DNA from: Candidatus Gastranaerophilales bacterium
GTDB taxonomy: Bacteria; Cyanobacteriota; Vampirovibrionia; Gastranaerophilales; Gastranaerophilaceae
DNA length: 35,750 bases
NCBI GenBank assembly: GCA_944325675.1
Contig: CALVAZ010000045.1
Location: forward strand, 1 to 35,750
Reading direction: 5' to 3'
Part shown: piece by piece, positions 19,727-24,276 of the stretch
Numbering within the stretch: the stretch's first letter is position 1
Layout of the letters: every line of letters begins with the position of its first letter
Notes under the pieces: model-generated
Told to the model about the DNA's origin: nothing
Databases searched by the model: none
What the model saw: only the letters and a program-made list of their open reading frames with translations
Position numbers and translations under genes: made by a program

Positions 19727-20863
19727 CTATTGAAGTTGAGTCTTAACAAACTCGCCTATAGAGTATGCTTCAATTGTACCAACTACTATTTCAAATTCAG
19801 GAAGAGCTTTTTCAAGTTCATCTTTCATATGCGCTAAAAGTCCGGGGATTATTATTTTACGTGTTTTTACTTTATTTATAAGGTCAAATTTCTTAAGAGT
19901 TTTTGCAACCATTTTGGCTGTAAACTTTTCCGCTGACCATGCGGTTAAAACACTCATTCCTCCGGCAGGGGTTACAATAAGATATGACGGAATGTTCAAA
20001 TCTTCCAATTCATTCGCCACAGCATAAAATGTAAGTGCAAAATTTGTTGTCATAAAAACTATTGAATTTTCATCAGGATTATTAAATTCATAGATTTTAG
20101 GTTCAACTTGGAGTGCCTTTTGAGGGTCTGTGAATATATTCTGTCTTAGTGTTATTAACGTAGAAAAAAGGCTTTCATCAAAATCTTCAAAAACGAGCAT
20201 GTTTGCGTATTTGCACAAATAGTAGCTTGCTTTTGCGCATAAAGCGAGTTTATCTTGTGTTGATTTGAAATATACATAAACAGGATCGGAATATTTCTCA
20301 TTTCTGTCAACAATTGCTTTTGTGCGTGTTTCGATGAGTTTTTCAGCTGTTTTTTTAAAATTCCCGTCAACGATTTTTTTTATTGAAAGTTTTGAGAAAT
20401 CTTTTTCGTCAATGTACACTATCTCATCGCATAAATTTTTAGCTTTATAGTTTTCTCCATTTTTGAGAATAACCAAATCAACTTTCAACTTTTCATTTGT
20501 ATTTTTTATTTCAAATTTTCTTATCCGGTTTAGTTTTTTTTCAAAATCGGGTGATTTGCAATCTAAAATTATGGCAAATACAGTTCTGTTTATAAATTTT
20601 TTTTCGTGCCTGTATAATACGTTTTCTCCGCCAATTTTTAGACCGTCAATTTTAATTGTTTTTTGTGGTGATTTCATTTTTTTCTGACAAAGTTTTTTGA
20701 GTTCGTCAGACATATATTTGCACCTGTCAAAATTAACCTGTTTTTGTGAAAGTTTTATTGCAAATGCCATACATGTCGGGCATCCGCATTCCTTACAATT
20801 GGTATGCTCCGATTTTTTTGACGCAGGCAGGTATTTAAAAATTTCAAGTCCTGATAGGTGCAT
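19727..20863 (-). CDS. AcsC-like corrinoid iron-sulfur protein large subunit, orphan
   Basis: 378 residues. The N-terminus carries a four-Cys cluster motif C23-x2-C26-x4-C31-x16-C48 (TNCKECGCPTCMAFAIKLSQ...RCKYM), as in the [4Fe-4S] domain of the gamma subunit of acetyl-CoA decarbonylase/synthase. The following KIGGENVLYRHEKKF is also AcsC-like. The C-terminal third (VFMTTNFALTFYAVANELED ... RKIIIPGLLAHMKDELEKAL) matches the cobalamin-binding domain. The middle is shorter than in classical AcsC (about 440-450 residues). It starts one base after the stop of the AcsD-like gene, in an operon led by ftsH. No CO dehydrogenase, acetyl-CoA synthase or AcsE methyltransferase is nearby. A methyl-carrying corrinoid protein outside the full Wood-Ljungdahl pathway is the likely role. 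Confidence 0.85.
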   Translation of the reverse strand: MHLSGLEIFKYLPASKKSEHTNCKECGCPTCMAFAIKLSQKQVNFDRCKYMSDELKKLCQKKMKSPQKTIKIDGLKIGGENVLYRHEKKFINRTVFAIILDCKSPDFEKKLNRIRKFEIKNTNEKLKVDLVILKNGENYKAKNLCDEIVYIDEKDFSKLSIKKIVDGNFKKTAEKLIETRTKAIVDRNEKYSDPVYVYFKSTQDKLALCAKASYYLCKYANMLVFEDFDESLFSTLITLRQNIFTDPQKALQVEPKIYEFNNPDENSIVFMTTNFALTFYAVANELEDLNIPSYLIVTPAGGMSVLTAWSAEKFTAKMVAKTLKKFDLINKVKTRKIIIPGLLAHMKDELEKALPEFEIVVGTIEAYSIGEFVKTQLQ

Positions 20864-20864
20864 A

Positions 20865-21635
20865 TTACCAAAGTCCTTTCATGATTTTTATATTATCAGG
20901 ATTATACATAACTATAATATCTGCACCTGCGGCTTTAACCGCTGAGGCAGAGGCGATTTCATACATTTGTGCACGAGTTTGCAGATTACCCCAGCTTTTT
21001 GAAAAATTATCCTGCAGTGCTTCTTTTGTTTTCAAACTTTCACGGCATACAAAACTTATTATCGGGGTGTTAAGGTATTCGTCATCTTCAAGTTTTATTT
21101 TTTCTATTATACTGTAACCATAGTCTAAGCCATAGCCAAGCCCACCGATATCTGTGTCTATTATTATATTTTTTAAAGGTAAGCCCATTTCGCAAGCAAG
21201 AATATTTAGTTCTTTGCAGGAATTTATATCTATTGGACTTTTTAAAATGAGCTTGTGATTACCTTTGATTACATGTGGTATGATTTCTCGATATGTGTTT
21301 TCGTTCGCGTATGAGATGATAGAACTTTTCTCTAATATTTCAATTAAGGATAATAACAATTTTACATTTAGAGTGTCATTGTCATTAATGCCATTAATCA
21401 TCAGAGGTTTTGTGATTTTTGGTAAAAGATTTTCCAAGATTTTTTCCGCTTTTGGAATTTGTTCTTCGTTATTTATGTTAAATTTTAAACTTAAAATATC
21501 ACAGGCAGAACTATTGGCTTTTTCCACAAGCGACATATAGTCACCGGTTTTGAAAAAGTCTTTCGCAATTTTGAAATTTTCCTCCGTATTAAAAACGGAA
21601 ACTTCAAGTGCGTAAAGAGTTTTATGACCTTTCAC
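20865..21635 (-). CDS. AcsD-like corrinoid iron-sulfur protein small subunit, orphan
   Basis: 256 residues from a GTG at 21635 ([14 protein letters not shown]), shorter than usual AcsD (about 310). It has the TIM-barrel pattern of the delta subunit: [66 protein letters not shown] and the closing [20 protein letters not shown]. The N-terminal extension of classical AcsD seems absent. The gene overlaps the 3' end of ftsH by 14 bases and is followed one base after its stop by the AcsC-like gene, so the pair is made together as a heterodimer. Function without the rest of the pathway is unknown. Confidence 0.85.
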
Positions 21636-23499: not shown

Positions 23500-23685
23500 T
23501 TAACTAACCTCTCAATAATAAAATCCTATCTTATTATATCTCAAAAATACAAAAAATGTATAGTATTAATTGCTAAAAAATATTGCTAAATGTTAAATAT
23601 AGTGCTAATTTAGTCAATTTTTCTTTAAAAAATGTTTTTATATATGTAAGCACGATTGTACTCATATTAAGTAAAAGGAGAATAA

Positions 23686-24276
23686 ATGTCAGTAAACGGC
23701 CCGTTCAGTATAGATCCGGATGATTTACCACGTATAAAAATAGCAAAGGCTAATGCTGAAAAGGCAAAGGCTGATAAAGCTAAGCAGGATTCTATCATGG
23801 CTGAAGCTCAGCGCAGACGCGATTTTCAGCTTGATTCGATGAAGCAAGAAAATGAAAAGTTGCGTTTATTGGCTCAGGTTCCTAAAGCTGATACTCAAGA
23901 GGTCAATGAAATCTGCGATTGGTTATACGATGCCATAGATGGTTTGGGTACTGATAATATTGGGTTTGAACGTGCATTACTAAAAATAGAAAAAAATAAC
24001 GTTATTGAAGTTATGAATAAGTGGGATTCTACCTATGGTAAACAATACGGTGAAACCTTTATTGAATCCTTTTTGAATGACGCGAACAGAAGACAAAGAA
24101 AAGTATACGGGACCAGAATAATAGATTGTATGCAGCAAAGAGCAAACGATTACGGTTTGAGTTTAAGTCCATATATCGACAATGCAAGAACTGAACTTAA
24201 TACAATCGGCAACAGTTATAAGATTAATGAAAATGTTGAAGAAATGCGAAGGATTTTATACGGAACGGATTACTAA
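23686..24276 (+). CDS. Annexin-repeat-like protein
   Basis: 196 residues. The N-terminal 65 residues form a charged Ala/Lys-rich coiled-coil-like helix (KANAEKAKADKAKQD). Residues ~74-135 match an annexin repeat: VNEICDWLYDAIDGLGTD, then a run of helices and YGKQYGETFIESFLND. The GLGTD at 86-90 corresponds to the annexin calcium loop and the YG-x3-Y/L to its fourth helix start. A second, weaker half (RRQRKVYGTRIIDCMQQRAN) follows. There is no signal peptide. AAAAGGAG lies just before the ATG. A bidirectional terminator follows. Membrane or calcium binding is inference from the family; the similarity is at motif level only. Confidence 0.8.
   Translation: MSVNGPFSIDPDDLPRIKIAKANAEKAKADKAKQDSIMAEAQRRRDFQLDSMKQENEKLRLLAQVPKADTQEVNEICDWLYDAIDGLGTDNIGFERALLKIEKNNVIEVMNKWDSTYGKQYGETFIESFLNDANRRQRKVYGTRIIDCMQQRANDYGLSLSPYIDNARTELNTIGNSYKINENVEEMRRILYGTDY

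Follow-up and report, generated by a model that had tools for sequence, protein, structure and literature searches.

Can a short bacterial protein carry a true annexin repeat, and what would a single repeat of this kind do in the cell? The question is raised by an open reading frame in the window, i.e. the whole stretch of 35,750 nucleotides from a Candidatus Gastranaerophilales bacterium that was analysed here. Gastranaerophilales are a lineage of gut bacteria with kinship to cyanobacteria. The annexin repeat, of about 70 residues, is the unit by which animal and plant annexins bind calcium and membranes. An earlier note on this DNA had proposed that the product joins an annexin repeat, including its calcium loop, to a long charged coiled coil. 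Both motifs named there, IDGLGTD and YGKQYGETFIESFLND, are present in the window translation.

The gene and its genomic position

The open reading frame encodes a product of 196 aa, and its features are compiled in Table 1. A search of genome contigs with the single window protein recovered one relative only, its closest, which is located on a Gastranaerophilales contig and is 90% identical. Comparison of the gene with its nearest orthologue (L031) gave a dN of 0.054 and a dS of 1.74 (NG86; dS is near saturation), corresponding to a dN/dS of about 0.03, while dN was 0.03 for the annexin-like domain alone. Given these values, the window open reading frame is a real gene under purifying selection, which is strongest in the annexin-like domain. 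No signal peptide was seen by eye in the protein. A simple scan for a terminator 3' of the gene found none; a T-rich inverted repeat 3' of the stop codon was noted by eye only. Viral contigs scanned with three members of the annexin-like family gave no match.

Table 1. Features of the annexin-like gene, in window positions
Feature	Positions	Strand	Basis
Open reading frame: N-terminal charged helix, one annexin-like repeat, C-terminal helical tail	23686..24276	+	ORF call; dN/dS about 0.03 against L031
AAAAGGAG, likely ribosome-binding site, Shine-Dalgarno-like, just 5' of ATG	23673..23680	+	By eye
Residues 13-64, long charged helix, in two of eight positional orthologues	23722..23877	+	AF2 helix H13-64, pLDDT mostly 72-88; absent in L004-L006
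Residues 70-155, annexin-like repeat (helices A-E by homology)	23893..24150	+	phmmer, alignments, profile comparisons
Residues 86-89, GLGT, putative type II calcium loop between helices A and B	23941..23952	+	Sequence and family alignment
D132, putative acidic calcium cap, aligned with D of the canonical GDFS motif	24079..24081	+	Family alignments
Residues 156-196, C-terminal tail, two predicted helices, beyond the canonical repeat	24151..24273	+	AF2, low confidence

The gene is located between ftsH, which is divergent, and an exbD/exbB/tonB cluster (identified by Pfam), which is convergent. This placing was found in 8 of the 30 loci examined, namely in seven of the 16 genomes of the genus and in one genome of another genus. 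The remaining nine genomes of the genus lack the gene at the ftsH/exbD site, where ftsH follows; the gene is therefore considered as accessory and not as part of an operon. Given this absence and the orientation of the genes, the idea that it is transcribed as a unit with ftsH or exbD was rejected. As three genomes of the same genus (L106, L111 and L115) carry a different small gene (145-148 aa, on the exbD strand) between exbD and ftsH, the site represents a variable slot.

Elsewhere in the window (19727-21635), two adjacent genes of the CdhD family, one of them with an Fe-S motif, resemble the corrinoid iron-sulfur protein of the acetyl-CoA pathway. The acetyl-CoA synthase CdhC was found neither in the 59 relatives nor in the own genome of the window.

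Evidence for a diverged annexin repeat

The Pfam annexin model PF00191, to which the earlier note had looked for confirmation, does not match the window protein alone, with no match up to an E-value of 10. A phmmer search of the PDB with the whole protein, on the other hand, returned annexins as the top nine entries (best 4mdu, E 1.2e-4), and residues 64-180 returned annexins as the top 11 (best E 3.4e-5). Two alignments with no rows in common were built from domains of the same order. A1 consists of 30 related domains, none of them over the annexin cut-off, and A2 of nine canonical repeats from proteins having at least one repeat over the PF00191 cut-off. Both were taken from a set of 41 domain rows, from which low-scoring rows (under 25 bits), duplicated loci and L049, a weak row, had already been removed; L042 and L038 were included in neither.

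The A1 and A2 profiles aligned with each other at an E-value of 2e-12 over 78 columns (hhalign). Against solved structures, A1 found annexin VI at 1.8e-20; annexins took each of the best 45 places among the 60 chains listed, and the first non-annexin was a designed protein at 6.9e-5. The A2 profile matched annexin VI at 4.5e-82 and the window domain at 2.1e-8 (Z set to 1000). The profile of the eight positional orthologues was aligned with A2 at an E-value of 1.7e-9 (probability 96.3), as against 0.067 (probability 0.8) for the reversed A2 alignment used as a control. When the A1 members were scanned singly, 8/30 matched PF00191 at E<=1 (best 1e-4) and 3/30 matched PF18411 ('Annexin-like domain'). 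In the wider set of relatives, PF00191 was over its cut-off in five out of 59, one of which has four repeats.

A likeness arising by chance or convergence, in which a helical protein happens to surround a GLGTD loop and no homology is involved, would be in line with the failure of PF00191 on the single protein and with the poor structure models described below. However, two alignments sharing no rows would hardly match each other as they do, no other family appeared among the best 45 chains headed by annexin VI, and the reversed control was negative. Such a resemblance is strongly disfavoured and very improbable. The profile evidence (A1 against A2, annexin VI and the orthologue control) thus bears out the annexin assignment of the earlier note in the form of a diverged repeat, and the window domain almost certainly belongs to the annexin family.

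As no second annexin repeat was found in residues 1-65 or 156-196, the protein contains one repeat only, and the core of four (or eight) repeats of classical eukaryotic annexins is absent from it. Classical annexin repeats display an arginine region motif; in the A1 family this region is replaced by the motif INKDNVIEVMxxWD. The most conserved columns of the family (A1 numbering) are G24, N41, W49 and G93, G24 being the loop glycine. Two other assignments were discarded: a Pfam match to YBL010C_LAA2 was below cut-off and was attributed to helix composition, and an EF-hand was rejected because DAIDGLGTDNIGFE, judged by eye, does not fit the DxDxDG loop with E at position 12 and no EF-hand Pfam match was obtained.

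Predicted structure and the charged helix

AlphaFold predictions without alignment reached a mean pLDDT of 54.7 for the whole window protein and of 52.3 for residues 64-180, with values of about 40-70 for the annexin-like domain in both models. At this low confidence, the helices of the whole-protein model (70-85, 91-103, 106-111, 116-136 and 139-155) are compatible with helices A to E. A fold search with the 64-180 model yielded mostly globins at E-values above 0.7 and no annexin among the 50 rows listed; because of the low confidence of the model it was uninformative and was discarded.

The charged segment proposed as a long coiled coil by the earlier note is indeed predicted as a helix in the window protein, but it is not a conserved part of the family. 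The window protein and that of G015 have it, but the orthologues of G008, G010 and G012, which are 150-151 aa long, lack it. Among the N-termini of the eight positional proteins, two form the charged helix, three are a short stretch before the repeat and three are of another kind. A conserved coiled coil as the defining part of these proteins was therefore rejected.

Putative calcium loop and acidic cap

The glycine and threonine of the calcium loop, as claimed by the earlier note, were recognised in G86-L-G-T89, which together with D132 corresponds by alignment to a putative type II loop plus acidic cap. D132 was placed by an ungapped alignment of FIESFLNDAN with LTRDIQGDFS, read by eye from A1 and A2. 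We take its position to be that of the acid completing the type II calcium site in annexins. In the sections of the literature consulted, this site is described in general terms (PMC3894181; PMC10882027).

In a first sample of 47 distinct domains, GxG[TS] was present in 34 and the cap acid in 44, all 34 loops being accompanied by the acid. A larger sample comprised 92 distinct domains; for it, 40 further places had been hand-picked from match lists and not taken at random. Here, 58/58 GxG[TS] loops had D or E at the cap. With the loci sorted into groups by hand, the short/C-terminal group showed the loop in 49/67 and the cap acid in 64/67 (49/49 intact loops with acid), and it kept the second glycine and T/S in 65/67. 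The long-protein group had the loop in 6/22 and the cap acid in 22/22, and the canonical group had both in 3/3. In the orthologues L007 and L008, the first loop glycine is changed to Cys and the cap acid is also lost.

Since the acid persists in long relatives with a lost loop, its conservation alone is no proof of calcium binding. Taken together, the pattern fits calcium binding in the group of the window protein and its loss in many long relatives. On balance, the window protein is slightly more likely than not to bind calcium.

Proposed function

The best explanation overall, to which we assign a probability of about one half, is that the gene encodes a cytosolic, calcium-responsive peripheral membrane-binding protein built around one diverged annexin repeat. 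Upon a rise in calcium, the A-B loop and the cap acid would bind an ion that links the protein to acidic phospholipids at the cytoplasmic surface of the membrane, in the manner of eukaryotic annexins. The helices of the tail, and in the lineage of the window the charged N-terminal helix, may contact partners or oligomerise the protein, which would give the avidity that a single repeat lacks. Calcium-dependent membrane binding itself is suggested as the role only tentatively; no paper on such binding by a single annexin repeat was found in the open-access literature.

The strongest competing explanation is that the repeat has turned into a helical scaffold or protein-interaction module that works without calcium, and in which the loop would be kept for structure. 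This is a serious possibility, though we consider it doubtful. It would account for the persistence of the domain in long LysM/EF-hand relatives with a mostly degraded loop, for the 18/67 short/C-terminal members that lost the strict GxG[TS] loop, and for the fact that the most conserved columns, except the loop glycine G24, are not calcium ligands. It is less easily reconciled with the near-constant second glycine, T/S and acid of the short/C-terminal group, in which every intact loop comes with its cap acid.

The short annexin-like proteins could also act as adaptors, chaperones or immunity-like proteins, and thereby as partners, for the large toxin-like proteins in which this order carries the same domain. 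The sharing of this domain with EF-hand/RHS/LysM proteins, one of which has a C-terminal zeta-toxin domain, and the adjoining 936-aa and 453-aa annexin-like genes of genome G101 would agree with such a partnership. At all eight places, however, the window gene lies between ftsH and exbD and no long protein of this type was recognised in the surrounding stretches, and in the own genome (86% complete) only a remote relative of the EF-hand N-terminus was found, without annexin-like match. A partner role is thus improbable. No toxin domain was detected by Pfam or NCBIfam in the window protein, for which calcium-responsive membrane binding is the preferred reading.

Comparison with known annexins

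Bacterial annexins are already known: the survey of Kodavali et al. (2014) lists 34 of them in 17 species of four phyla, and the sections consulted include none from cyanobacteria or their relatives (PMC3894181). The same sections report a strongly conserved GxGTD, toxin fusions, and the possibility of overlooked divergent annexins (PMC3894181). As far as these sections describe them, the surveyed proteins, among them the single-domain annexin of Cytophaga hutchinsonii, share with the window family single or few repeats, GxGTD and fusions, including to toxins, as well as an acid at the D/E turn, which is less conserved (PMC3894181). The Gastranaerophilales repeat departs from that set: its helix C carries a motif of its own, PF00191 mostly fails to recognise it, and it occurs in the majority of the genomes sampled from a single order.

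With eukaryotic annexins (PF00191; annexin IV, V, VI and VIII; 4mdu) the window protein shares, by alignment, the regions of helix A, the GxGTD loop and helix B, a putative helix C with YG at its end and an acid following putative helix D. It differs from them by one repeat instead of four or eight, a helix C-D linker longer by a few residues and the extra C-terminal helices. The canonical annexins of the same order (L035/L143 with four repeats, L032/L144, L033 and L034) align with A1 as stated above. Unlike the window domain, they are over the PF00191 cut-off, and L035, L032 and L033 have two to four repeats together with LxxDIxGDFS; in the tree they stand apart from the window domain, with weakly supported deep branches.

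Single annexin domains were reported by Zhang et al. (2012), in the part of the study consulted, for PVC-delivered polymorphic toxins (PMC3482391), and PF00191 is listed among predicted effector domains in the corresponding part of an eCIS paper (PMC8213781). The long relatives resemble the toxins described in that part of the former study (PMC3482391) in that one annexin domain precedes a C-terminal domain that varies; they differ by EF-hand/RHS/LysM regions in place of the PVC metallopeptidase and by an often degraded calcium loop, and the window protein differs by the lack of a toxin domain. In the titles and abstract starts of the open-access literature, no paper on annexins in Gastranaerophilales, Melainabacteria or Vampirovibri- was found, and none on Gastranaerophilales toxin/LysM proteins in the open-access literature.

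The domain family in Gastranaerophilales

Among 286 genomes of the order, 189 gave a match to the A1 profile (E<=1e-3), and only three of these 189 lie outside the family of the window. The remark of the earlier note that bacterial examples are few does not apply to this lineage. In a phylum-wide sample, 115/339 matched A1 at E<=1e-4, and among the matches listed all belong to the family of the window. What is new is a large, diverged, lineage-specific subfamily.

Three settings of the domain were observed: short proteins, the C-terminus of proteins of about 400 aa, and long EF-hand/RHS/LysM proteins. In the tree, the window clade joins L009 and then the group of ~400-aa proteins (labels 100 and 98), with the reservation that deep branches are weakly supported and that re-rooting may have moved labels. 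Proteins of this ~400-aa type (L011, L012, L028, L002 and similar) start with a conserved N-terminus of the SNYGGQYQFNVMPS type, continue with a helical middle part and end in the annexin-like domain. They occur in many genomes of the family; those tested obtained no NCBIfam name over cut-off.

The long proteins (about 850-2300 aa; L136:5271-10715, L134, L135, L137, L138, L142, L168, L169, L171-L173 and L176-L178) combine EF-hand, RHS-like, LysM and annexin-like regions, although some of these regions were not detected in every protein, and their C-termini vary. L136 has a zeta-toxin end (1.9e-18), L134, L171, L172, L173 and L176 have FHA ends, and L135 and L178 gave a calpain-like match below cut-off. 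This family looks like polymorphic-toxin-like or giant surface proteins, and its members may be toxins.

It is possible, although we put it forward with reserve, that annexin repeats are no rare scattered borrowing, and that one bacterial order holds a large diverged family of them, which it employs in small membrane proteins responding to calcium and also as one module of giant surface or toxin-like proteins. As far as the consulted sections of the 2014 survey go, annexins were considered either to have arisen long ago in bacteria, where members would have diverged beyond recognition, or to have spread by gene transfer (PMC3894181). Should comparably diverged members exist unnoticed in other lineages, annexins would be a module of old standing in bacteria, one of the scenarios in those sections (PMC3894181). 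The consulted part of a 2024 review still leaves prokaryotic annexins as a class 'in abeyance' (PMC10882027). With dense diverged repeats and clear multi-repeat annexins in one lineage, the question of annexin origin becomes testable, and the single-repeat proteins are small enough for simple biochemistry.

Two further proteins of the order were noted. A 1060-aa protein from another family (L035/L143) ends in four annexin repeats, the eukaryotic number. L141:2337-4175 combines LysM, a diverged annexin-like domain and Amidase_3 in one protein, and its product is probably a cell-wall hydrolase with an annexin-like domain.
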